This document shows, one piece after another, positions 1 to 22,737 of a DNA stretch of 23,089 nucleotides. Numbering within the stretch: position 1 is the first letter of the stretch; every line of letters starts with the position of its first letter. Origin of the DNA: a virus; the IMG/VR virus record IMGVR_UViG_3300044846_000315, positions 1-23,089 of that record; one strand, 5' to 3'. Position numbers and translations under genes: made by a program. The notes under the pieces were generated by a model. The model ran no database searches. It saw only the letters and a program-made list of their open reading frames with translations, and was not told the DNA's origin.

Positions 1-1044
1 CTGCACCATGTTTACCTGGTTAGCTGACTTGTGATTGAAGACTCGATCTGCCCAGTTGTTTAGCTGAGCAAGGCTTGTTGTGTTTAGAGTTACGTCGATA
101 GCCGCTTCCCCATAAAGATCGATAGAGTCCTGATCCTTACGGACTGTAAAGATAGCCGGGTCTGATTGAAGCGAAACAGTTAGGGAGTTATAGACCGCGT
201 CCGCGTCCGAGAAGACATTGATTTCGCTCATACATAAGTGATAGGGCTCGCCGTGGTTGTTGCCAATTACGTAAGTTGTTGGAGTTCCTGACTGGACTCC
301 GGTGCGGTGAATAACAACAAGTTCCTCGGTGTCCTGATCTAGCCAGACTAAACCGTTACCAACTTGAAGAGCTTCATTGATTACTTGTGAGACTAGAACG
401 TTAGTTTCATCCACTACTGGAATCTGACCTCCAACGTGGTAAGAATCTGGTGAGAGTCCTAGACCGGAGTAGATACCAATAAGCTCCCAAACTTCGTCTA
501 CGTGAATGTGTGAACCGAATGAAGTGGTGTCCCAAACCGCGAACCTAGAGTTCACTAGGGACTTGTAAGCATCGAAGCCAGTAATTCTAATTTGATTTAG
601 ACCGTCTGGAAAATAGGTCACGTCTATAGTGTCAATAAAGCCTTGAAATAGGATGCGGTCTAGCTCGTCATCCTCTAAACGAATTCTGAACTTAGTTGAA
701 GCTCGAATGTTTTTGTTTACAGTTGGGTCTAGATCGTAGCTTTGAAGAGTTAGGTTAGCCGTTCCTGGAGTCGGTTGAAAATTGATTGAGTCCTCTAATG
801 ATCCACCAACGGAGATGTTAGCCCGCGCGACCGTGCAAGTTACTTCTTGCCACTTTAGACCGGAGCTAGGGGCTAGAACTGCGTCTGAACCTAGGAGTGA
901 TACACCCAAGATAAACTCACCGAAGCCACCAAGGACATCGGTTGAACCTAGCTCGCTAATTCCAAGAATGAAGGTGTTGCCCTCTGCGTCGGGAACTAAG
1001 AACTCGACCTTTAGGTTTTCATCAATAGCGAAGTTAGGGATCAT
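1..1044 (-). CDS. Tail tip / minor tail protein, copy 1 (3' end cut by window edge)
   Basis: Homologue of the complete 409-residue protein at 15660-16889. The first 348 codons are present and about 61 C-terminal codons lie beyond the left edge. The start ATG (1044-1042) overlaps the tape-measure stop as ATGA, giving translational coupling. The N-terminus has a short repeated Gly/Leu-rich hydrophobic motif (FILGISLLG-like, twice), then a beta-rich region with an IRANTKIRVRL-type strand and a D-rich turn, as in baseplate-hub/tail-tip proteins. Its place directly after the tape measure is where siphophages put the distal tail or hub protein. The exact role (distal tail versus hub) cannot be told from sequence alone. 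Confidence 0.8.
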   Translation of the reverse strand, partial: MIPNFAIDENLKVEFLVPDAEGNTFILGISELGSTDVLGGFGEFILGVSLLGSDAVLAPSSGLKWQEVTCTVARANISVGGSLEDSINFQPTPGTANLTLQSYDLDPTVNKNIRASTKFRIRLEDDELDRILFQGFIDTIDVTYFPDGLNQIRITGFDAYKSLVNSRFAVWDTTSFGSHIHVDEVWELIGIYSGLGLSPDSYHVGGQIPVVDETNVLVSQVINEALQVGNGLVWLDQDTEELVVIHRTGVQSGTPTTYVIGNNHGEPYHLCMSEINVFSDADAVYNSLTVSLQSDPAIFTVRKDQDSIDLYGEAAIDVTLNTTSLAQLNNWADRVFNHKSANQVNMVQ

Positions 1045-2234
1045 CGTGCGTTTCTGATTAGGTTAGTTCCAGAAGCTCGGTTAGCTCGGTTGATTGCGTT
1101 AGCTATCTCCTGCGCGGTTGCGTCAGTTCTAACGCTAATGTTGTTGCTAATCATAAGTGGAGCTGGTGTTGGTTCCTGGAATGCTTCACCGAATAGTCTG
1201 CCACCTTGCTGGAATCCTGAACCAGCAAGAATCCTTGATTGCTGACCTAATGCTTCACCCTGCATGAATCCACCTGCTGCCGCTCCTGCTGCAGCTGCTC
1301 CAGTCGTGGCTAAGGCTGAACCGCTAACAAAGGCAGCGATACCTGCAGCGGTTTTGAATCCGTTCACGGCTACGGTTGCCAAGTTCCAGGCTGCGGTCAC
1401 TCCACCAATAGCTGCAACCATTGGAAGCAGCCAGTCCTTGTTATCAATTACCCACTTAGCCATGGCGGTTAGCTCTGTAATGATTTCAACAATTCCATCT
1501 ACTACGGCTTCAAGGGTTTCTTGACCTTTAGGTGTAGCTAGCCATTCCGAGAAGTCGTTTAGAAGCGGTAGTAACGCCATACCAATTTGTTCTTGTAGTT
1601 CACCAAAGATGATGTTTATTCGCTGATACGGGTCTGTGTCTGCAGCTGCTTCTGCAGCACCCTTGAAGGTTCGCTCTAATTCTGCTAGAGGATCTTCTGC
1701 TCCTCGAAGTGATGGGATGAGCTTTAGAAGTGCGGTGTCCTGACCTGCCAAGGACTTCGCCATGGCTTGAGTAACTGAATCTAGATCCTTACCAGTTGCA
1801 GCTGAAGCGTCTAGTGCTACCTGGAGGAACTTGCTTGATTGAGTAACATCTCCGGTTGCGATGAATAGCTTCTGGAATGCTGGTCTTAGAACATCGTCAG
1901 CCACGGCGGACTGGAGTTGCATCCGCTTTATGTGCTCTTCGGCTTCTCTTACAGTTCCAGCGGTTGCCTTGCCTGTGTTTTGCATAGCAAGTGCCAGGAT
2001 GTCCATTGACTTGACATCTTCGATTGCAGCCTTAGAAGCTTGCTCAAATTCGTTCTTGATTGCACTTAGAGAGAACCCAACACCGATAGCTCCGAGAGCT
2101 GTGATCATACCTTTAGAGATAGATGAAGCGGTTTTGTTTAGCCCGGCAAGGTTTCCTTCCGCGCCCTTAGTTGCTTCCGTTAGCTTCTTGAACTCACCAA
2201 GAATCTCAACGTTTAGAGCTAAAGTTCCTGCCAT
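1041..2234 (-). CDS. Tape measure protein, copy 1 (397 aa, very short)
   Basis: The scaffold around which the tail tube polymerises, setting tail length. It is Ala/Gly/Leu-rich and largely helical, with a hydrophobic segment near residues 270-320 (WLLPMVAAIGGVTAAWNLA onward). The N-terminus MAGTLALNVEILGEFKKL and the C-terminus ANAINRANRASGTNLIR are shared with the 426-residue copy at 16898-18178, but the core differs. At about 1.5 angstrom per residue (the general rule for siphophages) the tail would be roughly 60 nm, at the short end for siphophages. The start has an AAAGGA Shine-Dalgarno 8 nt upstream and follows the frameshifted chaperone stop by one base. Confidence 0.92.
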   Translation of the reverse strand: MAGTLALNVEILGEFKKLTEATKGAEGNLAGLNKTASSISKGMITALGAIGVGFSLSAIKNEFEQASKAAIEDVKSMDILALAMQNTGKATAGTVREAEEHIKRMQLQSAVADDVLRPAFQKLFIATGDVTQSSKFLQVALDASAATGKDLDSVTQAMAKSLAGQDTALLKLIPSLRGAEDPLAELERTFKGAAEAAADTDPYQRINIIFGELQEQIGMALLPLLNDFSEWLATPKGQETLEAVVDGIVEIITELTAMAKWVIDNKDWLLPMVAAIGGVTAAWNLATVAVNGFKTAAGIAAFVSGSALATTGAAAAGAAAGGFMQGEALGQQSRILAGSGFQQGGRLFGEAFQEPTPAPLMISNNISVRTDATAQEIANAINRANRASGTNLIRNAR

Positions 2235-2235
2235 G

Positions 2236-2597
2236 CTAATTCCTTTGTGCGGTCTTGATGAACGCTAAATACTCGCCCATCGTTAGAGCTTTATACTCCG
2301 ACGGGGTAATGTTAAAGACCCGGCAGAACTCCGCCATTCGTTTAGCGGATAGCTCCCTTATTCTTTTTTTTCTTCATCACCCTTGATCATCTCAAGGGCT
2401 TGTTTCAAACTTACTTTTTTAGCGTCTTCCATTTTGTAGTTAGGGTTATCCCTTTTGAGGACTACCCAAACGAAAGCAGATAGGGCTTTGCCTTTAGGCT
2501 TGCCGTTCTGAAACGCTTCATCGATACTTGAGTTTGTCAAGTTCTCGATTAGTTCTACTTCTTCTAGAGTCAAACTCTCGAAATCAAACTGGCTCAT
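2236..2597 (-). CDS. Tail assembly chaperone, -1 frameshift (GT-like) product, copy 1
   Basis: A -1 slip on A-AAA-AAA followed by G (2364-2370) after codon 78 reads 42 further codons and stops at 2238-2236, one base before the tape-measure ATG, giving 120 residues. The extension begins RIRELSAKRMAEF and contains the SEYKALT motif. It has no start of its own and fills the otherwise empty 120 nt. The same frame is open with only substitutions in copy 2, which argues that it is translated. Programmed -1 shifting at this position is an established feature of tailed-phage tail genes. The efficiency cannot be read from sequence. Confidence 0.88.
2358..2597 (-). CDS. Tail assembly chaperone, short (zero-frame) form, copy 1
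   Basis: A 79-residue acidic protein ending KGDEEKKE. Position between the gp10-like/tube genes and the tape measure is diagnostic of the lambda G-like tail assembly chaperone, which binds the tape measure before tube assembly and is absent from the virion. The start is supported by TAGGAGA 8 nt upstream of ATG. The stop lies just after a run of eight A residues that forms the slippery site for the longer product. It is 87% identical (69/79) to the copy-2 protein at 18302-18541. Confidence 0.88.
   Translation of the reverse strand: MSQFDFESLTLEEVELIENLTNSSIDEAFQNGKPKGKALSAFVWVVLKRDNPNYKMEDAKKVSLKQALEMIKGDEEKKE
2364..2371 (-). promoter_or_regulatory. Programmed -1 ribosomal frameshift slippery site, copy 1
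   Basis: Eight consecutive A residues on the coding strand, with the zero frame reading GAA-AAA-AAA-GAA-TAA. The heptamer A-AAA-AAA fits X-XXY-YYZ, and the zero-frame stop follows one codon later. No convincing downstream pseudoknot was seen by eye. Confidence 0.85.
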
Positions 2598-2606
2598 CTG
2601 TGTCTC

Positions 2607-3011
2607 CTATGGTTTAGTGGATTGTTCTTTTAGTAGTTTATCTAGGTTATTGAAGAATGCCTCGTAGACTTCTTTTCTTTTCCTTCTGATTGCTAATGTG
2701 AAGAACGGGTTAGGTCTGATGTTTTTCTTTACGAAGTTATTCTTATCATAAGTCCAACCGAAGTGGATTGGGTTAGCGTAGGGAACTGATCTATTGTTAC
2801 CTGCACTAACGACAACTTTTCTTGCCACTTTTCTGGCTTTGATTGTCTCCCTAAGATCACCATTTCTAACAGGAGCTAAGGAGCGACCTTCATTAGCCAC
2901 AATCTCTCCAGCCCTTTGAGATGCTTCTCCAATAGCAGAAGAAGGAACCCCAATAGTTCTAAGAGCTTTGACGGCTTGATTCAGACCGCTTACCTTAACA
3001 CCTTCAGCCAT
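2607..3011 (-). CDS. HK97 gp10-like neck/tail-completion protein, copy 1
   Basis: A 134-residue basic protein with the hallmarks of the HK97 gp10 family: an N-terminal VKVSGLNQAVKALR helix, the APVRNGDLRETIKA segment near residues 46-59, then PYANPIHFGW at about residues 77-86 and an RPNPFF motif before a C-terminal helix. These proteins act at the head-tail interface or in tail completion. It sits between the tube and the chaperone genes, 2 nt after the tube stop. Copy 2 (18553-18960) keeps these motifs but differs at many positions, mainly in the C-terminal helix. Confidence 0.88.
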   Translation of the reverse strand: MAEGVKVSGLNQAVKALRTIGVPSSAIGEASQRAGEIVANEGRSLAPVRNGDLRETIKARKVARKVVVSAGNNRSVPYANPIHFGWTYDKNNFVKKNIRPNPFFTLAIRRKRKEVYEAFFNNLDKLLKEQSTKP

Positions 3012-3013
3012 GA

Positions 3014-3454
3014 CTAGGCTGCTGTTACGATCTCTACTCCGAAGTATTTGTTCGTAGCTGGGTCGTGAGGAGTGTTCTTCACGCGTAGGGTTACAGAGAA
3101 CAGAGCGGTCTCGTTGCTGTTTAGGCTTAGAGGTGGAAGCTCGTTGAATACTGCAACTCCCTCGTAGTGAGGAGCGTCAGCGGTTGGAGTAGTGTTTCCG
3201 TTAGGAGCGATTACGAAGGCAACCTCGGTTCCGAAGTTATCCCATAGAACGCGGTAAAGGCTAGTGTCTTCGCCTGAAGTGATTCCATCTAGCTGAAGCG
3301 CCCATTCTCCGCCCACGCGAACTTCACAGAAGGTCTGAACATCGCCAGGTGCGTCACCTAGGGTCAGCTCAACCATGTTTGCGTCGCATGCGTAGTCGGT
3401 TGCTCCGATTTTGAAGATAATGTTTTGTGCTTTGATTCTTGTTGAAGCCGCCAT
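3014..3454 (-). CDS. Major tail (tube) protein, copy 1
   Basis: A 146-residue beta-rich protein starting MAASTRIKAQNIIFKIG, with an immunoglobulin-like/tube fold pattern and the C-terminal stretch FNELPPLSLNSNETALFSV. Such short major tail proteins polymerise as hexameric rings around the tape measure. The ATG is preceded by GAAAGG at 9 nt, the expected strong site for an abundant structural protein. It differs from copy 2 at 6 of 146 residues (96% identity), all in the second half. Confidence 0.9.
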   Translation of the reverse strand: MAASTRIKAQNIIFKIGATDYACDANMVELTLGDAPGDVQTFCEVRVGGEWALQLDGITSGEDTSLYRVLWDNFGTEVAFVIAPNGNTTPTADAPHYEGVAVFNELPPLSLNSNETALFSVTLRVKNTPHDPATNKYFGVEIVTAA

Positions 3455-3468
3455 GATTGGCTACCTTT

Positions 3469-3837
3469 CTAAAGTGTGATGTCTAGCGAGACAAACAAGT
3501 TTGTTGCTAGATACTCGGCGTTGTTTGTTTGTAGATTGTAAGGCTGGTTGACCGAAGTAATCCGAACATAAGTCAGAGGTTCGATTGCGTTCAGAACATC
3601 CTCGATGAGCTGGTCTAGGTTTTCCGTTGCCTTCTTGTTAGTCGCGGTAGAAGCTACCAAAACTAACTCAAGCCCTAAACTCCACTCACCAAACTGTGCG
3701 GTCTGCAAGTAAGGCTGTGCGGAGTTGATTAGGACTATTGGCGGAGTGACTCGCTCCGGGATGTATTCCAGAACGTTCAATCCAGCTTCCGTTAGCTCAA
3801 GTTTGAACTCGACCTTAGAAGCATTGATTTCGCTCAT
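3469..3837 (-). CDS. Probable tail terminator protein, copy 1
   Basis: A 122-residue protein of the size and alpha/beta pattern of siphophage tail terminators (lambda gpU / minor tail U-like), which cap the finished tube and join it to the head. Identification rests on length, on the YVRITSVNQPYNLQTN strand and on its place between connector and tube gene. The ATG overlaps the connector stop as ATGA. It differs from copy 2 at 10 of 122 positions (92% identity). A head-closure role is the main alternative. Confidence 0.75.
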   Translation of the reverse strand: MSEINASKVEFKLELTEAGLNVLEYIPERVTPPIVLINSAQPYLQTAQFGEWSLGLELVLVASTATNKKATENLDQLIEDVLNAIEPLTYVRITSVNQPYNLQTNNAEYLATNLFVSLDITL

Positions 3838-4136
3838 ACGGCATAGCCTACGTATCTTTGAAGCAACGGGTAAACCGCGTTCATTGGATCCTTGCCAACC
3901 CTGATGGGTGCGCCATCGAAGCTTGCAAATTGAGCGACTCCGTTAGGAGCGGAACGACGGTGAAAGAGTTCCGAGCTTGTTATTAGGACAGCCTGATCGT
4001 GCAACGAGACCGGGACGGTCGTTACTGCACCAACATACTTAGTCACTAAAGCAAGTCCGGCGGTGAGACATTCCTGGGGGAATGTAATCTCATCGGTCCC
4101 GACATAAGCCTGGAACTCTTCCAACGTCACAGCCAT
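3834..4136 (-). CDS. Head-tail connector (gp6-like adaptor), copy 1
   Basis: A 100-residue helical protein starting MAVTLEEFQAYVG, in the slot right after the capsid gene where HK97 gp6-like adaptors attach under the portal. SELFHRRSAPNGV and the PMNAVYPLLQRYVG C-terminus fit the family pattern seen in actinophage connectors. The start has AGGTC about 7 nt upstream. It is 97% identical to the copy at 19781-20083, the best conserved protein in the module. Confidence 0.78.
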   Translation of the reverse strand: MAVTLEEFQAYVGTDEITFPQECLTAGLALVTKYVGAVTTVPVSLHDQAVLITSSELFHRRSAPNGVAQFASFDGAPIRVGKDPMNAVYPLLQRYVGYAV

Positions 4137-4147
4137 TTATAGACCTA

Positions 4148-5680
4148 TTACGCTACTACGTCTAGCTCAACGATTGCAGCTGGGAATGGCACGGTAATTG
4201 CCATAAACCCAAACACAGAAATTGAGTCAGTCAGAGTGGTGATGTCATCCGCGGTCAGCCTCACAGGTGCGCCTGGAGACTCTAGAGTCTGAAGTGCGCG
4301 ACTGTTAGCAACGTATGCCTTTGTAGCAGTCATAGCTGGGTCTACGATGATTGGTAGTCCCATGATCTGACCGGATAGTCCTGGAACGTTAGCTGAACCA
4401 AGGTTGTTGATTCCTGCTCCGTCAACTAGAACTACTGGACGTCCGTCTTCACCCTGAACCGATAGAAGGAACTTGAATGCAGTTGTTCCAACAACGATTG
4501 CCTCTGGACGTAGTCCGGAGTTCTTGAAGATGTAAGTAGAAGCGTCGGTTAGACCAGCGATAAGTGCAGCTGAAGTTCCAGCTGAAACATCGAAGACCTT
4601 GCCGGTGTAGCTTAAACCCTGAACCTTAGCAACAAGAGCTGCGTTGGTTGCGTTAGCGTAAGCGATTGACAAGCCCTGAAGAGCGGTGTCTAGGTAGTTT
4701 ACGGATGATCTTAGGATGCTTTGCTTGGACATGCTTGTGTAGCCACCGTAGGTTATTACGTCTGCAGATACAGAGTCGATTGTCAAGTTACCGAATGATA
4801 GCTCTTCGTTCTCTGGGTTCTGAACGCCAACTGCAAGAGTGTTTGCAGATACCTGTGCATACTCAACGGTTAGTCCTGCAGCTGGAAGTGCAGCGCGAGA
4901 GAAGACCGATAGAGCTGGACGGTTGGTGTCGATTAGGTTGTTGATGAAGCCCAAGAAGCCTGGTAGGGCAACGGTGTCAGCTGAAGTTGAAGCGTCGCGG
5001 GCTAGAGCCTTTGCGTCTTCGTCTCCAGTAACTAGAGCCTTTGCGAACTCGCCTTGTGAGCGGAACTTGTGTGATGCTGGTGTTGCTTGTGCGACGGTCT
5101 GTCCTGCTTCGATAACGCGGCGCAGTTCTGCAACCTCGTCCTGAACGGTGCGAACGTCAAGTTCAATGTTTTCCATTGTTTCACTTTCTGTTTCATTAGG
5201 AGTCTCAACGATCTCTTCAACCTCTTCGGCTTCAATCTCGCTGCGGACTTCGGTTATTTTTGCGCCTTCAAAGGCAGGGAAGGGAACTACTGAAACCTCT
5301 TTGAGATCCACTAGCTCTCTAACTATCGTTTGACCTTCCTTCCGGTCTTTGACCGGGAAGAATCCAACCGAGAATCGATTTAGAACGCCGTCCTGTAACA
5401 AGGTATACACTTCATTTCCGCGGACGGTATCGGAAATTCTAGCCACGATCTCGTAGCCTTCTTCGGTGTCGCGACCTTCTAGAACTTTACCGATTGGCTC
5501 CTCGTGACCGTAGAACAGTTTTACATCCTCAACGGACTCAATAGCTCCAGCCTCGAAGCGCTCTTTTAGGTTTCCAGTTAGGTCGATTTCTTGACCGTAT
5601 GGAACTGCAAGTCCGACGATGGTTCTCTCTTCGGTCTCAACTAAGCGAGCTTGGAACTCGCGTGTAATCATTTCAGACAT
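4148..5680 (-). CDS. Prohead protease-major capsid fusion protein, copy 1
   Basis: A 510-residue polyprotein. Residues 1-145 are an HK97-type prohead protease (S78/U35 family): FYGHEEPIG with probable catalytic His59, VLNRFSVGFFP with Ser104, and LKEVSVVPFPAFEGAKI. Residues 145-200 are Glu-rich and coiled, matching a delta/scaffold domain. Residues 203-510 are the HK97-fold capsid protein. A single gene for protease plus shell occurs in some very small actinophages; most phages use two genes. The start is chosen for AAGGAAGG 6 nt upstream and an 8-nt overlap with portal. The shell domain diverges strongly from copy 2, whereas the protease domain is nearly the same. The maturation cleavage point cannot be placed from sequence. 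Confidence 0.92.
   Translation of the reverse strand: MSEMITREFQARLVETEERTIVGLAVPYGQEIDLTGNLKERFEAGAIESVEDVKLFYGHEEPIGKVLEGRDTEEGYEIVARISDTVRGNEVYTLLQDGVLNRFSVGFFPVKDRKEGQTIVRELVDLKEVSVVPFPAFEGAKITEVRSEIEAEEVEEIVETPNETESETMENIELDVRTVQDEVAELRRVIEAGQTVAQATPASHKFRSQGEFAKALVTGDEDAKALARDASTSADTVALPGFLGFINNLIDTNRPALSVFSRAALPAAGLTVEYAQVSANTLAVGVQNPENEELSFGNLTIDSVSADVITYGGYTSMSKQSILRSSVNYLDTALQGLSIAYANATNAALVAKVQGLSYTGKVFDVSAGTSAALIAGLTDASTYIFKNSGLRPEAIVVGTTAFKFLLSVQGEDGRPVVLVDGAGINNLGSANVPGLSGQIMGLPIIVDPAMTATKAYVANSRALQTLESPGAPVRLTADDITTLTDSISVFGFMAITVPFPAAIVELDVVA
5126..5233. repeat. 108-bp perfect match between copies (with 21070-21177)
   Basis: All 108 bases, including synonymous positions, are identical to 21070-21177. 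The block encodes the Glu-rich linker and start of the coiled delta region of the protease-capsid fusion, just upstream of the strongly diverged shell domain. It fits a recombination exchange point or RNA-level constraint. Confidence 0.95.
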
Positions 5681-6764
5681 CTAAGCCTTCCTTGGTTCTG
5701 ACCTCTTCAGCGGTTAGGATACCTGCTGCGATTGCGGTCTGGTAGTAGTTGTAGCGTGCTGCGACATCTGCCTTGAATAGATGCTCGAAGTCGAACTCGA
5801 CTCTCGTTCCTCTAGGTAGACAGTTGCTTAGTGCGTCTGTGATTGCGTCGGTGTAAGCCATAAGTGTGTGACGGAAGAAGACTTGATTCTCATCTTGCAA
5901 GTTAGTGTAGGTGTCTGATGATCCTGGAACGGATGTGATTAGCAACCTTGGAGGGATACCGAATAGCCTGGCGATTGCTTGTGTCTGCTGATCCTGAACT
6001 TCGGTGAATAGCGCGTCCCTTGGGGATAGAGCAATCTGCTGGTAATCAAAGCCATTAGCTAGAACTGCAACCTGACGGTTCTGTTGCTTGTTGTGCCAGT
6101 TGTTAGTTACTTCATCAGCTTCAGCCTTGTTCAACATCTGGTTAGTCTTTAGGACTCCAGTTGGAACTCCTGCAGCGGTGAACCAGTTTAGAGCGTAGTC
6201 GCGTAGATCTAGAGCTGCGCTGATGTCTTTGTAGCAAGAAGCGATTGGGCTAACACCGATTAGATTACCGGACTGGCTAAATACTCTTAGATGCTCAATC
6301 TCGCGCTTAGTGTAACGCTTGCCCATGTAGTCATAAACGATTGTTGAGTAATCGATTGTGCCGTCTACCATCTTTGGATAGCTAGGCATAACTGCAGCTG
6401 CCGGAAGAATAGTTAGGTTGTTTACCTGACCGTTGGAAGCGTATTGCTTATACCAGTATGCGTTGCCCTGTAGAGCTAGATCAACGACGGTCTGAAATAG
6501 GAAGTCCCTTCGGTTCTGATCTAGTGAAGGGTTGTTTACTAGAACAGGGTTCTCGACCTTTAGCTCGACTCCGGTAGCGAATCGGTAAGTGTTGATGGTC
6601 ATCTTGCTAATCGGAGTTCCGATGATTTGGATAGCGCGATAGACAGCGGTAAGACTTAGAGCTGTGTTAGGAGTAACGATGCTCGGTTGTCTGGTTGGGA
6701 TAGTAGGCTGAACAGCGCGAACTTCTGGAGTGCGACCTAGTAGCCTGTCAAGAATAGATGCCAT
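5673..6764 (-). CDS. Portal protein (HK97 family), copy 1
   Basis: The dodecameric portal forms the DNA entry pore at one capsid vertex and docks terminase. At 363 residues it is somewhat short for the HK97 portal family (usually about 400). Diagnostic segments are TALSLTAVYRAIQIIGTPIS near the N-terminus, DYALNWFTAAGVPTGVLK in the clip/stem region and QDQQTQAIARLFGIPPRLL near the C-terminus. It starts 30 nt after the terminase stop and has no clear Shine-Dalgarno site. The C-terminus overlaps the protease-capsid start by 8 nt. The copy-2 portal has exactly the same length and few changes. Confidence 0.95.
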   Translation of the reverse strand: MASILDRLLGRTPEVRAVQPTIPTRQPSIVTPNTALSLTAVYRAIQIIGTPISKMTINTYRFATGVELKVENPVLVNNPSLDQNRRDFLFQTVVDLALQGNAYWYKQYASNGQVNNLTILPAAAVMPSYPKMVDGTIDYSTIVYDYMGKRYTKREIEHLRVFSQSGNLIGVSPIASCYKDISAALDLRDYALNWFTAAGVPTGVLKTNQMLNKAEADEVTNNWHNKQQNRQVAVLANGFDYQQIALSPRDALFTEVQDQQTQAIARLFGIPPRLLITSVPGSSDTYTNLQDENQVFFRHTLMAYTDAITDALSNCLPRGTRVEFDFEHLFKADVAARYNYYQTAIAAGILTAEEVRTKEGLDV

Positions 6765-6793
6765 TTGGGGTCTAGGATACCACAGACCACCGA

Positions 6794-8230
6794 CTAGAAC
6801 ACTCCTATTGATGCGTGTGGTGCGCGCGATGAAACATAGAGGGCAAACACTGTTGCCATAACTGCATCGATGTCACCGATTGATTCTTTACGACTTATGA
6901 ACCAACTCTCTCCAGAGTATTTAGCAACACCGTTAGGCATTTGAGCGACCAGGAGGGGATCGCTGTTGTGCCTAACGGTGCCGGTGCTAAACATAGCAAA
7001 GACAGTCGAGCATGCTGATGAGACTTCTTTAGCCCATAGTGTCCAGACTGGAAGCCCAGAGTTTTTTAGTCTCTTAGCTAGACCAGGTAGCTGGCGATCA
7101 TCTAGCACTATCGCTCGCGGGCTGTGTTTACTATAAAGCGATGTTAGCTCATTGAAGAGTTGTTGTTCGGTAGGACTGACTAAAGACATAACCAATTCTG
7201 TTTCGTGAATGTTTTCGATGTCATTGGCATAAGCTATTGTGCCGTGAGCCCAGTTTGTAGTTATGTCTACTGCAAAGACTCCTCCAGTTAGATTGGTAAC
7301 TCCTCGACCAGTTGCAGCTCGGAAGATGTCTCCTGGCAACCATGAGTTAGTAGATCCAGCGATGAATTGATTTAGTCGGTATCTTCTAGCTTCGTGTTCC
7401 GGGATTGTTTTCAAGTCCGAGATAACTTGTTCCATTTCGATTCGACCTGCAGCGACCGAAGGGTTAGCTGCCATGATTGCCTTCGGGTCATCGACCTTTG
7501 AGTTCTCCGGTGCTTCCCATAAGAAGAAGCCAAAGCGTTCTAGATCGGCTGCGCCATTGGCTGCTGCTTTTCCTGACTTGTATAGATCTATCAAAGTCTT
7601 AGAGTTCTGATCTCCTGCGGTTGTAATTCCAACGACGATTCCATCCTTACGCTGTGATGTTCCAAGAACGGCTGCTGACCACATTCCTTCTTTAGCTAAG
7701 TGGAGCTCATCGAATAGACAGAAGCTAATCGGGATACCTTGAAGAGCTGCTTCTTTGGCTGCCTTGACGTCATAGCGTCCTCCTCCATCCGAAGTGACAA
7801 TTCCTCGAGTCTCTGTGGCTCGCTTGAATCGCTTCTTTAGAAACGGGTTGCTATTGATCACATAGAGAACGCGGTTGTAAACAATGTTTGCCTGGTCGGT
7901 GCTCGAGGCTAGTGAGATACACTGTGGACCGACTTCGTGAAGTAGCAAGCCATAGAGTCCTAGCATGGCTGCGATAAGTGACTTACCGTTCTGCCTTCCA
8001 ACGGAGATTACTACCTGGCGATACCGGAGTCTATTGGGGAAGGTTGGATGGTCTGCTGGATAGCGTTCGAGGATTGCCCTAAGCAACCACTTCTGCCATT
8101 CGTCAAGTTCTAGTCCATCTGGACTCTCCGGGCTACTCCACGCGATCTTTGCGAACTCGATGAGCTTATCCCCGTCGGTTATGAAGTCATCCGATAGAGG
8201 AGGCGTGAAAGTAGTCGGGAGCTGGAGCAT
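6794..8230 (-). CDS. terL: Terminase large subunit
   Basis: The ATP-driven packaging motor and nuclease, 478 residues, full length. The ATPase domain has Walker A GRQNGKS (78-84), Walker B CLFDEL (171-176, with D174/E175) and coupling motif TTAGDQNS (203-210). The nuclease domain has acidic residues D322 (FAVDITT), D377/D378 (VLDDRQ) and D453/D455 (GDIDAV), as in RNase H-fold terminase nucleases. The ATG overlaps the small-terminase stop as TAATG. Codons from about residue 362 to the end are matched at 22738-23089. This is the only complete terminase in the window. Confidence 0.97.
   Translation of the reverse strand: MLQLPTTFTPPLSDDFITDGDKLIEFAKIAWSSPESPDGLELDEWQKWLLRAILERYPADHPTFPNRLRYRQVVISVGRQNGKSLIAAMLGLYGLLLHEVGPQCISLASSTDQANIVYNRVLYVINSNPFLKKRFKRATETRGIVTSDGGGRYDVKAAKEAALQGIPISFCLFDELHLAKEGMWSAAVLGTSQRKDGIVVGITTAGDQNSKTLIDLYKSGKAAANGAADLERFGFFLWEAPENSKVDDPKAIMAANPSVAAGRIEMEQVISDLKTIPEHEARRYRLNQFIAGSTNSWLPGDIFRAATGRGVTNLTGGVFAVDITTNWAHGTIAYANDIENIHETELVMSLVSPTEQQLFNELTSLYSKHSPRAIVLDDRQLPGLAKRLKNSGLPVWTLWAKEVSSACSTVFAMFSTGTVRHNSDPLLVAQMPNGVAKYSGESWFISRKESIGDIDAVMATVFALYVSSRAPHASIGVF
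7020..7145. repeat. 126-bp exact repeat of the window's right end
   Basis: Identical base for base to 22964-23089. The first mismatch is at 7019 versus 22963. It lies inside the terL nuclease domain. Its partner ends exactly at the last base of the window, which suggests an assembly branch point. Confidence 0.97.
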
Positions 8231-8448
8231 TAGCGAGTGAGTAACTTCTCCAGTGGGTCAATCTCTGCGGAAGAGGCACCGAGAGATCGTTGAAGCTCGA
8301 GAACGGTCTTGCGAAGTTCCGCTGCCGTGCTGGTATTGGCTTGCTGGTCAAAGGACTGTGCCAGACGTAGGCATAAACCCGATAATACTTTTTGTTCAAG
8401 GTTAAGTTCCAGCGTTTCAAGCCAGTTCTGAATTGATTCAGTAATCAT
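8230..8448 (-). CDS. Probable small terminase subunit
   Basis: A 72-residue helical protein (MITESIQNWLETLELNLEQ...) placed directly upstream of terL, with a one-base TAATG overlap. A short helical protein with a TAAELRKTVLELQ-type central helix immediately before terL is the usual form of small terminase subunits in actinophages; these recognise the packaging site and regulate TerL. The ATG at 8448 is preferred over one at 8457 because the AGAAGGA site is 8 nt from the former and directly against the latter. No winged-helix motif is certain, so the call rests on context. Confidence 0.72.
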   Translation of the reverse strand: MITESIQNWLETLELNLEQKVLSGLCLRLAQSFDQQANTSTAAELRKTVLELQRSLGASSAEIDPLEKLLTR

Positions 8449-8750
8449 TAGATCCATCCTTCTGGATAATTTGACTGTTCCGCGAAAATTCGTGGAGAAG
8501 CGTGGGATGATGGCGAGCTAACAGAAAAAACCGGATAGCTCATTTTAGCCCTAACTTTCGCAGCAATGCATTCTTCCAATGCGATCTCCATAGCATTCTA
8601 TAAGTGAAGAGGCGGTGCCCTACCCCCAGGTATGTCCGTCTATGGGCTCTCTTAGATTTGATTGGTCTAAGCCAAAGAGGTAACAAGCTATTGAGTCCTA
8701 GCAATATCCTTGCCAGTAGCCCCTTACCCCCCGTCTTACCCCTACCCCTA
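8449..8750. other. Interval between HNH and small terminase; candidate cos/packaging region
   Basis: 302 bases without a convincing gene. Holds an imperfect 16-bp palindrome (8480-8495, CCGCGAA/TTCGTGG arms), a 6-bp inverted repeat GAGCTA/TAGCTC (8515-8520 and 8536-8541), a second G-rich tract on the minus strand near 8620-8625, and a four-run G-quadruplex motif at 8720-8748. Cohesive-end phages with an HNH-TerS-TerL order usually carry cos near here. The cut site itself cannot be placed. Confidence 0.4.
8720..8748 (-). other. G-quadruplex motif just 3' of the HNH gene
   Basis: On the minus strand four guanine runs of 4, 4, 6 and 4 are separated by loops of 2, 6 and 3 bases. This meets the standard intramolecular G4 pattern with room for four tetrads. 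It begins two bases after the HNH stop codon and lies in the candidate packaging region. Confidence 0.75.
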
Positions 8751-9002
8751 TTAGAATCTAGGGTTCCTCCAAGTGATTCGTTGGAGCACCCGGTCTTGCT
8801 TTCGTCCGTTACAGGATCTGCATAGCGATTGTAAGTTGTTGATGTCATGATTGGGTTCCCCGTTGCCGGGTGGAACGATGTGGTCGATTGTCCAGTCTTC
8901 ATTTATTAGCTCCTTCGCACACGATACACAGATCGGTTCCAAAACAGTCTTCGCATAAGCCCTTGCATTCCTCCACAATGTCGTGTCGTGCCAGTCTGCC
9001 AT
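8751..9002 (-). CDS. HNH endonuclease
   Basis: An 83-residue HNH nuclease with a treble-clef zinc site: C25/C28 (CVSC), catalytic pair D40-H41 (TIDHIVP), N55/N56 (DINNLQSL) and C61/C64 (CRSCNGRK). Free-standing HNH proteins next to terminase genes are known to assist TerL in cutting cos-type DNA. The ATG is supported by GAGAGGA 8-9 nt upstream and by the WRNAR element at residues 10-14, which belongs to the domain. The first 34 codons overlap the end of the gene at 8899-9177 in another frame. Confidence 0.93.
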   Translation of the reverse strand: MADWHDTTLWRNARAYAKTVLEPICVSCAKELINEDWTIDHIVPPGNGEPNHDINNLQSLCRSCNGRKQDRVLQRITWRNPRF

Positions 9003-9177
9003 CTGCTATTCCTCTCAATAGTTCTAGGTCTGTGGTTTCCCATTTAGTTACTTCTTCAATTATCTCCTCGAATGTTAGGATGTCTCCTAGATCGTGGTGA
9101 GCATTTAGGAACTCGAGTAGCTGCTTCCTTGCATAGTCAATACCAGCTTGAAAGCCTTTGGTGTATTGTGTCTTCAT
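8899..9177 (-). CDS. Small protein with C-terminal cysteine cluster
   Basis: 92 residues, function not recognised. The N-terminus has QYTKGFQAGIDYARKQLLE, a helix also echoed in the 88-residue protein at 9299-9565. The C-terminus has five cysteines (71, 75, 78, 84, 87) in a C-x2-C-x5-C-x2-C pattern suited to a zinc knuckle. The start has a strong AAGGAGGA site and overlaps the stop of the 42-residue zinc-ribbon gene. The last 104 nt overlap the HNH gene in a different frame; both frames carry sensible cysteine motifs. Confidence 0.75.
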   Translation of the reverse strand: MKTQYTKGFQAGIDYARKQLLEFLNAHHDLGDILTFEEIIEEVTKWETTDLELLRGIADGRLARHDIVEECKGLCEDCFGTDLCIVCEGANK

Positions 9178-9302
9178 TCTTCCTCCTTATTACTAATGAT
9201 GACGGTTATTGCCTTGGTGTCTGTGTTTACTGCACAATTCGGGCAAACGTAATGGTCTTTGAGATCGTATACCTCGTTGCAATATAGGCATTCGCTAGTC
9301 AC
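9174..9302 (-). CDS. Small zinc-ribbon protein, GTG start (42 aa)
   Basis: A short gene read from GTG at 9302. The product has two CxxC pairs, C5-x2-C8 and C20-x2-C23 (CLYC ... CPNC), separated by 11 residues, a typical zinc-ribbon knuckle, followed by a hydrophobic strand and an acidic tail NKEEE. The GTG overlaps the preceding stop as GTGA, and its own TGA overlaps the next ATG as ATGA, so it fills the space between the 88- and 92-residue genes exactly. The stop region of this gene also supplies the next gene's Shine-Dalgarno site. Function unknown; nucleic-acid binding or a protein adaptor are possibilities. Confidence 0.8.
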   Translation of the reverse strand: MTSECLYCNEVYDLKDHYVCPNCAVNTDTKAITVIISNKEEE

Positions 9303-15660: not shown

Positions 15661-16889
15661 TAGGCTTCCTTCCATAGTTCGAGTGTCGTGAACCAATTAT
15701 CCACATCTATGCGATGTGAGACCTTGATTATAGTGTAGAATCCGACGATGTCTAGCTCGTTATTAGTATAGCTGACACCTACCGTCATTCCCGGTGCAAA
15801 CACCGCTGCCTGTGTCAAGTTGCCTAGTCTGTCTTTAGTAGGAGTAACCACTTGATTCACCTGGTTAGCGGATTTATGATTGAAGACTCGATCTGCCCAG
15901 TTGTTTAGTTGCGCTTCGCTTGTTGTATTGAGTGTTATGTCGATGGCTGCTTCGCCGTATAAGTCAATAGAATCTTGATCCTTACGAACTACGGAGATTG
16001 CCGGGTTGGACTCGAGCGTTACAGTCAAAGAGTTATACACGGCGTCCGCGTCCGAGAATACGTTTATTTCGCTCATGCATAAGTGGTAATCATCTTCGTG
16101 ATTGTTTCCAATTATGAAAGTAGTTGGTGTTCCAGTCTGGACTCCGGTTCTATGAATAACTACAAGTTCTTCTGTATCTTGATCTAGCCAAACCAAACCG
16201 TTACCAACTAAAAGAGCTTCATTTATTATCGAGCTAACTAGAATGTTTGTTTCATCGACTACTGGTATTTGACCTCCGACATGATAAGACTCCGAAGATA
16301 ATCCTAAACCGCTATAGATACCTACTAGCTCCCAAACCTCGTCTACGTGGATGTGAGTTCCGAACGATGTAGTATCCCAAACTATAAATCGAGAGTTCAC
16401 TAAAGTTTTGTAAGCGTCAAACGCTGTTATCTCAATTACATTCGGGCCATCTGGAAAATAGGTAACTTCGATTGTGTCAATGTATCCCTGAAAGAGAACG
16501 CGGTCAATTTCATCATCCTCTAAGCGAACTCGAATTTTAGTGTTCGCTCGAATGTTCTTGTTTACAGTTGGGTCTAGTTCATAGCTTTGAAGAGTAAGGT
16601 TTGCTGTTGCTGGAGATGGCTGAAAGTTAATTGAGTCTTCTAGTGATCCACCGATAGAGATGTTTGCTCGAGCCGTTGAACAGGTTACTTCTTGCCATTT
16701 CAGACCGGAGCTAGGAGCTAGAACGTCATCTCCTCCTAGTAGCGACAATCCAAGAATAAACTCACCGAATCCACCAAGAACGTCGGTGCTACCAAGAAGG
16801 CTAATACCAAGAATGAAAGAACTACCGTCTTCGTCTGGAACTAGAAACTCGACTTTTAGGTTTTGATCAATTTGAAAGTTAGGAATCAT
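15660..16889 (-). CDS. Tail tip / minor tail protein, copy 2 (complete, 409 aa)
   Basis: Complete counterpart of the truncated copy at 1-1044. The N-terminal Gly/Leu motif occurs twice (FILGISLLG and FILGLSLLG). The central section IRANTKIRVRLEDDEIDRV and the FQGYIDTIEVTYFPDG strand are typical for hub-like tail proteins, and the C-terminus ends in VGFYTIIKVSHRIDVDNWF. It starts 8 nt after the tape-measure stop, unlike copy 1, which overlaps by 4 nt. Stop TAG is shared with the fibre GTG. Confidence 0.82.
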   Translation of the reverse strand: MIPNFQIDQNLKVEFLVPDEDGSSFILGISLLGSTDVLGGFGEFILGLSLLGGDDVLAPSSGLKWQEVTCSTARANISIGGSLEDSINFQPSPATANLTLQSYELDPTVNKNIRANTKIRVRLEDDEIDRVLFQGYIDTIEVTYFPDGPNVIEITAFDAYKTLVNSRFIVWDTTSFGTHIHVDEVWELVGIYSGLGLSSESYHVGGQIPVVDETNILVSSIINEALLVGNGLVWLDQDTEELVVIHRTGVQTGTPTTFIIGNNHEDDYHLCMSEINVFSDADAVYNSLTVTLESNPAISVVRKDQDSIDLYGEAAIDITLNTTSEAQLNNWADRVFNHKSANQVNQVVTPTKDRLGNLTQAAVFAPGMTVGVSYTNNELDIVGFYTIIKVSHRIDVDNWFTTLELWKEA

Positions 16890-16897
16890 TTGTCCTA

Positions 16898-18178
16898 CTA
16901 ACGAGGCCTAATTAGATTTGTTCCGCTTGCTCTGTTAGCTCTATTGATTGCGTCTGCTATCTCTTGAGCGGTTGCGCCAGTTTTAACGTTTATGTTGTTA
17001 GTTATTGTCGGTTGTGAGGTTCTAGCTTCTGGCCACCATTGAATGTCTGCCCAATTTGGTTCACCTGCAGCTTTAGCCGCGTCCATTTTTTGCTGTAGTG
17101 TTTGTTGAGCTTCGGTGCTATAGTAAGCTCCGACCGCTGCCCCTCCAACTAATCCAGCGCCCACGACTCCACCAGTAACAGCCGCTACAGAACTAATACC
17201 TGCAGCCGCTTTAAATAGTGTTACCGCTGTTGTAGCAGCATTCCACGCAGTCGTTACCGCTCCAATAGCTGTCACCATCGGGACTAGCCAATCTTGGTTA
17301 TCATCTACCCATATAACTAACTCAATTAGGTTTTCAATAATTTCCACAATGCCATCGACTATTGCCTGGAGCTTTGCTTCTCCTTCTGGAGTTTGTAACC
17401 ATGCGGAGAAGTCGCTTAGGACTGGGAGAAGAGCCTGACCAATCTCGGCTTGCATGTCTGTGAATTTGGCTGTTAAGGCTCCTGTTACACCTGCATAGCT
17501 TTCAGACTCTCTAGCAGCTTGTCCTTGTGCGTCTGTTGTTTTTTGGTAAAGAAGAGTAAGTGTTGCGTTTATGTCAGCTTCTTTTTCCGAAGCAAAGACC
17601 AAACCATTTTTAGCGTCCTCAAGTTTTTGGGCATCCACGTCCAATGCCTTGAGGGATACACCATAATTCTCAATAGGATCTCTTTCGCCTTTGAGCAAGG
17701 AAGAGATTGCACTTACGGCGTCTGCGGTTGGGCCACCGAAAGTTGCGGCTAAGTCTCCAGCTAGTTGAACTAGTCCTTTAGTTTTCTCTGCGGTGTCTTC
17801 AATCGTTAACCCATTACCTTTTAGAAGTGCACCAATAAGGGAAGATTGTCTAGCTGCGTCTGCGCTACTTAGACCAATGTCATTCATCTCTTTCGAGAAG
17901 AGCTTCATCTCTCCAGCGTTGCCCTTGAAGATAGAATCTAATGCGCCAAACTGTTGTTCTAGATCGCTTGCAGCTTCAACCGAATCCTTAGCACCTTGAA
18001 TCAAAGCGGAGAATCCAAGTGTGATTCCAAGGGCACCAACTATGCGACTTATGTTGGTTGAGAAGCCGGAGACTTTATCCTGGAGACCTTTAAGGCTTCC
18101 CTCTGCTCCTTTGGTTGCAGACGTTAGCTTCTTGAACTCACCAAGAATTTCTACGTTTAGAGCTAAGGTTCCTGCCAT
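16898..18178 (-). CDS. Tape measure protein, copy 2 (426 aa)
   Basis: 29 residues longer than copy 1. N-terminal MAGTLALNVEILGEFKKLT and the C-terminal ADAINRANRASGTNLIR are shared, as is the hydrophobic zone around WLVPMVTAIGAVTTAWNAA. Between them (about residues 28-240) the sequence is of a different lineage and reads like a TP901-type tape-measure domain (GALDSIFKGNAGEMKLFSKE ... LKGERDPIENYGVSLKAL). Expected tail length is about 64 nm by the usual 1.5 angstrom per residue rule. Confidence 0.9.
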   Translation of the reverse strand: MAGTLALNVEILGEFKKLTSATKGAEGSLKGLQDKVSGFSTNISRIVGALGITLGFSALIQGAKDSVEAASDLEQQFGALDSIFKGNAGEMKLFSKEMNDIGLSSADAARQSSLIGALLKGNGLTIEDTAEKTKGLVQLAGDLAATFGGPTADAVSAISSLLKGERDPIENYGVSLKALDVDAQKLEDAKNGLVFASEKEADINATLTLLYQKTTDAQGQAARESESYAGVTGALTAKFTDMQAEIGQALLPVLSDFSAWLQTPEGEAKLQAIVDGIVEIIENLIELVIWVDDNQDWLVPMVTAIGAVTTAWNAATTAVTLFKAAAGISSVAAVTGGVVGAGLVGGAAVGAYYSTEAQQTLQQKMDAAKAAGEPNWADIQWWPEARTSQPTITNNINVKTGATAQEIADAINRANRASGTNLIRPR

Positions 18179-18179
18179 G

Positions 18180-18541
18180 CTAATCCTTTTTCAAAATCTT
18201 TATGAACGCTGCATACTCGCTCATAGTTAGAGCCTTGTATTCGGAAGGACTCATGTTGAAAGTCCTGCAGAACTCCGCCATTCGTTTAGCGGATAGCTCC
18301 CTTATTCTTTTTTTTCTTCATCACCCTTGATCATGCCAAGAGCGTCTTTCAAGCTAATCTTCTTTGCGTCTTCCATCTTGTAATTCGGGTTATCCCTTTT
18401 AAGGACTACCCAAACAAAAGCGGATAAGGCTTTGCCTTTAGGCTTGCCGTCGGTAAACGCTTGCTCGATACTTGAATTTGTCAAGTTCTCGATTATTTCT
18501 ACTTCTTCTAGAGTTAGACTCTCGAAATCAAACTTGTTCAT
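18180..18541 (-). CDS. Tail assembly chaperone, -1 frameshift product, copy 2
   Basis: The slip on the A-run (18308-18315) after codon 78 gives the 42-residue extension RIRELSAKRMAEFCRTF... with SEYKALT intact, and stops at 18182-18180, one base before the tape-measure ATG. Length 120 residues, identical to copy 1. Ten of 42 extension residues differ, with no stop or indel. Confidence 0.87.
18302..18541 (-). CDS. Tail assembly chaperone, short form, copy 2
   Basis: 79 residues, ending KGDEEKKE exactly as in copy 1. Ten substitutions, most of them conservative. Stop TAA is one codon past the slippery run. It is the zero-frame product that normally exceeds the frameshifted form in amount. Confidence 0.87.
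   Translation of the reverse strand: MNKFDFESLTLEEVEIIENLTNSSIEQAFTDGKPKGKALSAFVWVVLKRDNPNYKMEDAKKISLKDALGMIKGDEEKKE
18308..18315 (-). promoter_or_regulatory. Programmed -1 frameshift slippery site, copy 2
   Basis: Eight A residues on the coding strand with the same phase (GAA-AAA-AAA-GAA-TAA) as the site at 2364-2371. Confidence 0.85.
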
Positions 18542-18552
18542 TCTGTGTTCTC

Positions 18553-18960
18553 CTATGGTTTAGTGTTTGAATACTTTTGAAACAGCTTCTCCATGCTATC
18601 AAAGAACAATCCGTAAACCTGTGACCTGGTTCTTGTCAAAGCGTTTGTAAAGAATGGTCTAGGTCTAATGTTCTTAGCTTGCAGGTTATTCTTGTCGTAA
18701 TTCCAACCGAAGTGAATCGGGTTAGCGTAGGGAACTCTTGTGTTGTTTCCTGCACTAACTACAACTTTTCTAGCTATCTTCTTAGCCTTTATAGTTGCCC
18801 GGAGTGCTCCAGTCCTGACCGGAACTAAGGATCGCGCCGTATTGGCTACAAGTTCTCCAGCTTCTTGGGACGCCTGGCCTATTTCGGCAGACGGAACCCC
18901 AATAGCCCGGAGAGCTCGTATGGCCTCATTGAGACCAACGACCTTAATTCCATCGGCCAT
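18553..18960 (-). CDS. HK97 gp10-like neck/tail-completion protein, copy 2
   Basis: 135 residues, one more than copy 1. VKVVGLNEAIRALRAIGVP at the N-terminus, LVPVRTGALRATIKA, PYANPIHFGW and RPRPFF mark the family. The C-terminal helix (RTRSQVYGLFFDSMEKLF) is quite different from copy 1. It ends 12 nt before the chaperone ATG and begins 3 nt after the tube gene's stop. Confidence 0.88.
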   Translation of the reverse strand: MADGIKVVGLNEAIRALRAIGVPSAEIGQASQEAGELVANTARSLVPVRTGALRATIKAKKIARKVVVSAGNNTRVPYANPIHFGWNYDKNNLQAKNIRPRPFFTNALTRTRSQVYGLFFDSMEKLFQKYSNTKP

Positions 18961-18962
18961 GA

Positions 18963-19403
18963 TTAGGCTGCTGTTACGATCTCTACTCCGAAGTATTTTC
19001 CAGTAGCTGGGTCGTGAGGAGTGTTCACTACGCGAAGAGTCACAGAGAACGTTGCTGTCTCGTTGCTGTTTAGGCTTAGAGGTGGAAGCTCGTTGAATAC
19101 TGCGGTTCCTTCGTAGTGAGGAGAGTCAGCAGTTGGAGTCGTGTTTCCGTTAGGAGCAATTACGAATGCAACTTCGGTGCCGTAGTTGTCCCATAGAACA
19201 CGGTATAGGCTTGTGTCTTCGCCAGATGTAATTCCGTCTAGCTGTAGTGCCCATTCTCCGCCTACGCGAACTTCGCAAAAAGTCTGAACGTCGCCAGGTG
19301 CGTCACCTAGAGTTAGCTCGACCATGTTAGCGTCACACGCATAATCGGTGGCTCCGATTTTGAAGATAATGTTTTGTGCTTTGATTCTTGTTGAAGCGGC
19401 CAT
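18963..19403 (-). CDS. Major tail (tube) protein, copy 2
   Basis: 146 residues, 96% identical to copy 1. The six changes lie in the second half (for example DNYGTE for DNFGTE and LRVVNTPHDPATGK for LRVKNTPHDPATNK). A Shine-Dalgarno AAAGGTAG precedes the ATG. Near-identity of the tube alongside different tape measures implies tube and length genes exchange independently. Confidence 0.9.
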   Translation of the reverse strand: MAASTRIKAQNIIFKIGATDYACDANMVELTLGDAPGDVQTFCEVRVGGEWALQLDGITSGEDTSLYRVLWDNYGTEVAFVIAPNGNTTPTADSPHYEGTAVFNELPPLSLNSNETATFSVTLRVVNTPHDPATGKYFGVEIVTAA

Positions 19404-19415
19404 GAGGCTACCTTT

Positions 19416-19784
19416 CTAAAGTGTGATGTCTAGCTGGACGAACATGTTCGCTGCTAGATACTCGGCGTTATTTGTTTGTAGATTGTAAGGCTGGTTTACC
19501 GAAGTGATCCGAACGTATTTCAAAGGTTCAATAGCGTTCAGAACATCCTCGATGAGCTGGTCTAGGTTTTCCGTTGCCTTCTTGTTAGTTGCGGTAGAAG
19601 CTACCATAACTACTTCAAGTCCTAAACTCCATTCGCCAAACTGTGCTGTTTGCAAGTAAGGCTGCGCGGAGTTGATGATGACTATTGGAGGAGTTATTCG
19701 TTCCGGAATGTATTCCAAAACGTTCAACCCTGCGTCCGCTAGTTCAAGTTTGAACTCGACTTTAGACGCGTTGATCTCGCTCAT
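19416..19784 (-). CDS. Probable tail terminator protein, copy 2
   Basis: 122 residues, 92% identical to copy 1. Overlaps the connector stop as ATGA. Changes are scattered and mostly conservative (V/I, L/I, E/D), as expected for a protein under structural constraint. Confidence 0.75.
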   Translation of the reverse strand: MSEINASKVEFKLELADAGLNVLEYIPERITPPIVIINSAQPYLQTAQFGEWSLGLEVVMVASTATNKKATENLDQLIEDVLNAIEPLKYVRITSVNQPYNLQTNNAEYLAANMFVQLDITL

Positions 19785-20083
19785 ACTGCATAGCCTACGT
19801 ATCTTTGAAGCAACGGGTAAACCGCGTTCATTGGATCCTTGGCAACTCGGATGGGAGCACCATCGAAGCTTGCGAATTGAGCAACTCCATTAGGAGCGGA
19901 ACGACGGTGGAAGAGCTCCGAGCTAGTTATTAGGACAGCCTGATCGTGCAACGATACCGGAACGGTAGTTACTGCACCAACATACTTGGTCACTAAAGCA
20001 AGTCCGGCGGTAAGACATTCCTGGGGGAATACAGTCTCATCCGTCCCGACATAAGCCTGGAACTCTTCCAACGTCACAGCCAT
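19781..20083 (-). CDS. Head-tail connector, copy 2
   Basis: 100 residues, three substitutions against copy 1 (in the DETVFPQ turn and at RVAKD). It starts 12 nt after the capsid stop, with AGGTC upstream. The flanking bases 20047-20104 match copy 1 without change, so the capsid stop/connector start is another conserved join. Confidence 0.78.
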   Translation of the reverse strand: MAVTLEEFQAYVGTDETVFPQECLTAGLALVTKYVGAVTTVPVSLHDQAVLITSSELFHRRSAPNGVAQFASFDGAPIRVAKDPMNAVYPLLQRYVGYAV

Positions 20084-20094
20084 TTATAGACCTA

Positions 20095-22708: not shown

Positions 22709-22737
22709 TTGGACTCAAGGATACCACAGACCACCGA

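Follow-up and report, generated by a model that had tools for sequence, protein, structure and literature searches.

Probable overprinting of a short HNH nuclease gene by two neighbouring reading frames in small uncultured phages

The HNH protein GP74 of HK97 promotes cos cleavage by terminase, according to the accessible text of PMC9410871 (citing Kala et al. 2014), which makes no mention of gp74 being overlapped by other genes. The linear 17.45-kb genome of the Microbacterium phage BonaeVitae (Orlajensenviridae) has as its final gene the small HNH gene gp26 (profile match E 1.8e-10), which overlaps its upstream gene by 4 nt only. Overprinting itself is a known process. In the accessible parts of two studies, 61% of dsDNA virus reference genomes are stated to hold a gene overlap longer than 50 nt (PMC7017920), and overlaps above 60 nt in prokaryotes are suggested to be selected against (PMC3887535).

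Herein, we analysed a virus record of 23,089 bases, IMGVR_UViG_3300044846_000315 (the window), from a group of small uncultured phages. Its HNH gene lies near the terminase genes, like gp74 of HK97, and is small, like gp26 of BonaeVitae, whereas its overlaps are long. The locus resembles known overprinted viral and prokaryotic genes in carrying an apparently older and a newer frame on the same strand with suppressed synonymous change, and the lengths of its overlaps (104 and 152 nt) each leave a remainder of 2 on division by 3, as in known overlapping genes. Unlike in these, HNH is covered end to end by two abutting neighbours, and the four-cysteine motif of the newer frame is partly read from the C-x2-C codons of the older gene. 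This layout was not found in titles and abstract openings, mostly from outside the subscription literature, on HNH overprinting, nested or fully overlapped phage genes, or zinc motifs in overlaps, and it is a strong new form of overprinting. With a probability of about 0.82, we read the locus as dual coding by overprinting, in which HNH would be the older gene, the upstream frame u92 would carry a four-cysteine tail, and a third frame, u120, would start within HNH.

The HNH gene and its surroundings

The features of the locus, in order of transcription, are as follows.

9182..9188, minus strand: AAGGAGG, ribosome-site-like, before u92
8899..9177, minus strand: u92, a 92-aa ORF with a predicted two-helix N-terminus and a four-cysteine tail; no known family
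9011..9016, minus strand: GAGAGG, ribosome-site-like, before HNH and within u92 (L-R-G codons; L-K-G in others)
8751..9002, minus strand: HNH endonuclease ORF, 83 aa (PF01844/PF14279)
8899..9002, minus strand: overlap of the u92 tail and the HNH 5ʹ end, 104 nt, different frames
8916..8957, minus strand: HNH codons 16–29, the block of suppressed synonymous change in u92 loci
8917..8955, minus strand: u92 motif C75-x2-C78-x5-C84-x2-C87
8910..8915, minus strand: AAGGAG, ribosome-site-like, before u120 and within both HNH and u92
8540..8902, minus strand: u120, the third ORF, 120 aa, with an ATGA overlap with the u92 stop and a basic C-terminus conserved beyond HNH
8751..8902, minus strand: overlap of u120 and HNH, 152 nt, frame kept open, otherwise unconstrained
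8230..8457, minus strand: 75-aa ORF at the usual small-terminase place, named from its position, with no family match
6794..8230, minus strand: terminase large subunit (TerL), downstream of HNH

With u92 over 8899–9002 and u120 over the remaining 152 nt, HNH lies inside a second open frame along its full 252 nt. The first codon position of u92 coincides with the third (wobble) position of HNH, and its second and third positions with the first and second positions of HNH.

The HNH ORF is a true member of the HNH family, with a profile match of 42.2 bits against curated cut-offs of 21.4 and 27.5 (PF01844/PF14279). D40, H41, N56, C25, C28, C61, and C64 were invariant in 18 of 18 aligned HNH sequences; the D-H and N residues and the two C-x2-C pairs are those which we take to be catalytic or characteristic of the family. 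A gap of 293 nt separates HNH from the 75-aa ORF, after which TerL follows. The closest named phages by TerL were Microbacterium phages of about 17.4 kb, 36.6–38.5% identical among the ten matches listed (1348 records), and the TerL of BonaeVitae is 38% identical to that of the window. This identity, the similar small genome, and the position of HNH near the terminase would be compatible with a relation to Orlajensenviridae. Considering the family match, the nearness of the terminase genes, the HNH gene at the genome end of BonaeVitae, and the role of GP74, packaging appears to be the likeliest role of the HNH protein.

Viral contigs were scanned with the HNH protein, and 123 relatives were obtained. 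Among the best 80 of these 123, which were kept, a u92 relative overlapping HNH was present in 56 loci and was not found in the other 24 (L058–L081), so that the same HNH gene, with and without the second frame across many related phages, supplies a built-in control. Scanning with the u92 protein gave 35 loci, and a profile of its N-terminal 59 residues gave 56, together adding L114 and L158. HNH was overlapped in all 35 loci of the former scan and in 55 of the 56 of the latter, the remainder being L158, in which u92 is present and the contig stops before HNH. The working set with u92 comprised 58 loci (the window, L002–L057, and L114). Neither scan found a u92 homologue away from HNH, and no locus therefore displays the arrangement that preceded the overlap. 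The HNH trees give no clear answer as to a single u92 clade: in the DNA tree, the u92 side of the best split also took in 11 of 31 loci lacking u92, and in the protein tree, 5 of 28 u92 sequences lay outside that side.

The u92 frame and its cysteine tail

The original prediction held that the 92-aa ORF and HNH share 104 nt in different frames, with motifs in both; we confirmed both ORFs and the shared stretch, with CEDCFGTDLCIVC read in u92 and WRNAR and CVSC in HNH. Its description of strong ribosome sites at both starts applies to u92 (AAGGAGG) and less to HNH, where GAGAGG, 8 nt before the ATG, is weaker. Relatives in which the 92-aa frame stops before the overlap, or in which HNH starts after CVSC, had been named as evidence to the contrary. 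The former were found in 0 of 58 loci, and as to the latter, all 80 loci had a start codon (78 ATG, 2 GTG) where the alignment puts the HNH start. The overlap is thus conserved in different frames: u92 extends 98–119 nt into HNH in all 58 loci holding both, with its stop at +95, +101, +104, or +116 counted from the HNH start. An in-frame stop lies one to four codons upstream of the HNH start, or just beyond, in the 56 u92 loci, which makes a much earlier HNH start impossible there; in some loci without u92, the HNH frame is open further upstream. A long overlap had also been regarded as unusual in this DNA. This view did not stand, since u120 overlaps the rest of HNH by 152 nt and overlaps above 50 nt occur in most dsDNA virus reference genomes, as cited above.

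When HNH codons were redrawn by phage codon usage, the u92 frame was open in 11% of draws on average, and it was open with C-x2-C-x5-C-x2-C in 0.2–0.4% (three sequences tested). The frame is actually open in 58 of 58 u92 loci, compared to 3 of 24 without u92. The upstream ORFs of these 24 loci are of several kinds and overlap HNH by 4 or 8 nt in 20 of them. Among loci without u92, L064, L068, L237, L240, and their near-copies carry different short cysteine-rich ORFs that reach 64–152 nt into HNH. These use two different frames, their tails lack a u92-like motif, and they offer natural passenger run-ons against which u92 can be compared.

The C-x2-C-x5-C-x2-C motif was present in all 50 distinct u92 proteins, and each of its four cysteine codons begins on an HNH wobble, namely that of codon 16, 19, 25, or 28. 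For codon counts, L075 was left out (insertion in HNH) and identical sequences were merged, which reduced 58 loci with u92 to 52 and 23 without to 22. In the 52 distinct u92 loci, Tyr16 was TAT, Cys25 TGT, and Cys28 TGT in every case, and codon 19 was ACT in 49 of the 49 with Thr, whereas the HNH cysteines outside the overlap were mixed (Cys61 28 TGT/24 TGC; Cys64 25 TGT/27 TGC). Without u92, the counterparts were TAC in 14 of 21 (codon 16), and TGC in 17 of 22 (codon 25) and 9 of 22 (codon 28). TAT, TGT, and TGT were also each kept in 11 of 11 u92 representatives less than 85% identical. In a set of 12 HNH genes without u92 near the u92 group (11 picked by the HNH tree, L237 added by hand), the codons vary and the motif is read in 0 of 12.

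The original prediction had proposed a test for reduced synonymous variation, which we ran with expected changes taken from trees built from HNH codons 35–82. Variation was suppressed at HNH wobbles that are the first bases of u92 motif codons, and not in relatives without u92. Loci with u92 had 32 synonymous changes over codons 16–29 where 77.9 were expected (resampling P 5e-5), and loci without it had 61 where 57.3 were expected; at the four cysteine wobbles, there were 0 against 15.5 with u92 and 21 against 14.9 without, these motif-span and four-cysteine tests having been run, like the choice of eight 'core' codons, after codon usage had been inspected. Codons 2–15, which read as u92 residues 60–73 and also lie in the overlap, had 64 changes against 51.4 expected and are unconstrained. 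For the HNH/u92 pair, change at sites synonymous in one frame is therefore suppressed in the motif block and not in residues 60–73, and the selected part is the cysteine motif with its near surroundings.

TerL provided an independent yardstick in 37 of the 58 loci with u92 and 16 of the 24 without, loci lacking a usable TerL being left out. With u92, pS in codons 16–29 was 0.08–0.18 at a TerL pS of 0.35–0.65, a several-fold suppression. Without u92, it was 0.53–0.63 at a TerL pS of 0.56–0.66, unsuppressed in the well-populated bins. Only 8 pairs lacking u92 fall into the three low-divergence bins, 7 of them in two bins with low pS (0.04 and 0.09) and 1 in a bin with high pS; these few pairs are uninformative, and the contrast depends on the more divergent ones.

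The second frame also appears in the HNH protein. Codon 26 in u92 loci has 13 second-position changes (Val/Ala) that alter HNH and leave u92 Cys84 unchanged, compared to 2 at this codon without u92 and to means of 0.25 in codons 35–78 and 2.64 in the variable codons 2–15. With u92, all 52 sequences carry Val at HNH position 20 and Ala at position 29, residues that u92 needs for cysteine; without it, position 20 is Ile in 9, Val in 8, and Leu in 5, and position 29 is mostly Gly (18 of 22) and in no case Ala. These comparisons indicate that the tail motif of u92 is under selection of its own, and they make the locus a clear natural case of one DNA stretch selected for two proteins at once, the u92 four-cysteine tail and HNH. 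The residues open to dictation by a second frame can be seen here (HNH Val20, Ala29, and wobbles), as can the reading of a cysteine motif from the cysteine codons of another protein.

The u92 protein itself matched no known family at Pfam or profile cut-offs, no protein of a phage collection below E 0.9, and nothing convincing among solved structures or by fold search; 32 pattern matches in cellular genomes contained no relatives. DUF2087 was rejected as its family, as 14 of 38 members matched at E up to 0.1 (best 0.0025) and the window protein scored 12.4 bits against a cut-off of 22.4. Homology with an 88-aa upstream ORF (hhalign probability 5.7%) was not supported, nor was homology with the upstream ORF of L078. 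AlphaFold2 predicts a helical N-terminus (mean pLDDT 80–90 per ten residues over residues 11–40) and gives the tail a pLDDT below 50, so the model lends no support to a folded knuckle there. Proteins of the DnaJ and anti-TRAP style carry two C-x2-C pairs, often followed by x-G, and the u92 tail shares this pattern. Unlike a DnaJ-type zinc knuckle, it has no Pfam match at cut-off and is not folded in the model. The four-cysteine motif is probably a small metal-binding knuckle.

Two small observations concern the flanks of this frame. Just ahead of HNH, u92 has a conserved L-R/K-G whose codons are the ribosome-site-like sequence at 9011–9016, and its conservation may thus reflect the signal and not the protein. 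Directly before u92 lies a GTG-start ORF of 42 codons (9174–9302, minus strand) with two C-x2-C pairs (VTSECLYCNEVYDLKDHYVCPNC...), under the size limit of the ORF list and overlapping the u92 start codon by 4 nt.

The u120 frame

The earlier note on this DNA had missed u120, which begins at the u92 stop. Its start codon overlaps this stop as NTGA in 55 of 58 loci, the exceptions being TGATG in L050 and a GTG two nucleotides past the stop in L010 and L020. In most loci with the u92 stop at +95, the start is TTG with a GTG at +100 as an alternative, which leaves the exact start in those loci uncertain.

The frame is open to the end of HNH in all 58 loci (51 complete, 7 cut by contig ends), compared to 2 of the 24 without u92. 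Synonymous redraws would keep it open in 46% and 27% of cases per sequence, respectively, ignoring relatedness, and with 46% of random draws open, openness inside HNH alone is a weak signal. The pS of HNH codons 34–83 is close to that of TerL, indicating that the portion of u120 inside HNH is not selected for sequence; synonymous change was not suppressed there, and openness alone is kept. ATA would usually put a stop in the u120 frame at HNH codons 39 and 42, and it was used for Ile39 and Ile42 in 0 of 58 loci each with u92, compared to 8 and 6 of 23 without. Given the open frame and this avoidance of ATA, translation of u120 probably runs through HNH, its N-terminus being free in sequence and left unfolded in the predicted structure; the start might lie further downstream. 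Outside HNH, sequence divergence demonstrates that u120 is coding: the part beyond HNH has a pN/pS of 0.28 (146 pairs from 51 sequences), and its C-terminus is basic and conserved.

The u120 protein is basic. That of the window had no Pfam or PHROG match, no PHROG matched more than 1 of 30 members, and no match was found in the phage collection at E up to 1. BonaeVitae gp1 was tried as a homologue and did not match. L294 (IMGVR_UViG_3300047300_000241) has an HNH gene with no u92 match and with its own AAAGGAG upstream. The u120 frame there has no stop over most of HNH, extends far past it to a basic end, and possibly represents u120 without u92.

Origin of the overlaps

Could the upstream gene simply have lost its stop and read into HNH, leaving a tail without function? 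The cysteine-rich ORFs of L064, L068, L237, and L240 run into HNH without keeping a motif, and u92 residues 60–73 are unconstrained. As an account of the whole, however, this is very unlikely, for the motif occurs in every distinct u92 protein, its four cysteine wobbles never change, and where u92 is absent the same HNH residues have free wobble. A passenger run-on is contradicted for the motif, and it is still the best account of residues 60–73 and of the first ~50 residues of u120. A cause other than a second protein for the suppressed change, be it a DNA site (e.g., a terminase site), a signal for translation, or a structure in the RNA, would fit the nearness of the terminase genes and the AAGGAG at the edge of the block. 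Yet RNAalifold on 18 sequences gave 11 pairs, compensatory change in none, and −6.26 kcal/mol, and RNA structure was rejected as the cause of the block. Moreover, the HNH codons that do vary (17, 22, 24, 26, and 29) are those where the u92 residue is kept or itself variable, 13 changes in the block alter HNH and not u92, and loci without u92, including 16 with TerL in the examined flank, are unconstrained; we give this alternative hardly any weight.

HNH genes can be mobile, and this one spans the junction of the abutting u92 and u120, across which it might have arisen or settled late. We hold this to be highly improbable, since an HNH gene with the same start is found in the 24 of the best 80 loci without u92, behind several different upstream ORFs and, in 17 of 24, with TerL on the same strand in the examined flank. 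The linear genome of BonaeVitae also ends with an HNH gene, and two reading frames would hardly survive the arrival of a sequence in their midst. An intact u92–u120 pair without HNH was seen in none of the 56 loci from the u92 profile scan, of which L158 ends before HNH; a u120 pattern search gave HNH in 52 of 52 loci, with patterns lying in the part of u120 shared with HNH. Overprinting, as originally suggested from the window, is favoured by the u92 tail, which overlies HNH in all u92 loci that have this gene, and a direction can be added, with HNH likely the older gene, as it keeps its start where the upstream neighbour differs.

In the overprinting account, the older frame would be a short HNH nuclease gene beside the terminase genes. 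In one phage group, an upstream u92 would have come to lack a stop until about 100 nt inside HNH, where its C-terminus would have been shaped into the conserved four-cysteine motif. Starting at the u92 stop, probably by termination–reinitiation with help from the internal AAGGAG, u120 would cross what remains of HNH and end in a conserved basic C-terminus of its own. On one mRNA, a ribosome would then read u92 and u120 in a coupled manner, while HNH would be started internally from GAGAGG, and the HNH protein would most likely aid terminase in cutting genome ends during packaging, as gp74 of HK97 does. The sequence TGTGT...GTGTGC yields C-x2-C in both frames. A bolder and rather doubtful proposal is that the nuclease gene is hidden under the coupled u92–u120 pair, with competing ribosome traffic setting the amount of packaging nuclease; the HNH C-x2-C codons, reread one frame over, would supply half of the putative metal knuckle of u92.

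The locus illustrates that two neighbours can between them overlie a gene along its full length, and gene-calling programs in which long overlaps are disallowed would be expected to miss at least one of u92, HNH, and u120. We also observed that the structural genes occur twice in the window (11–7145 and 15856–23089), about 15.9 kb apart and 67–82% identical in aligned pieces. The window spans about 1.45 genome lengths, many related contigs being 15.7–16.9 kb, and the duplication represents either an assembly that merged two strains or a genuine mixed concatemer.
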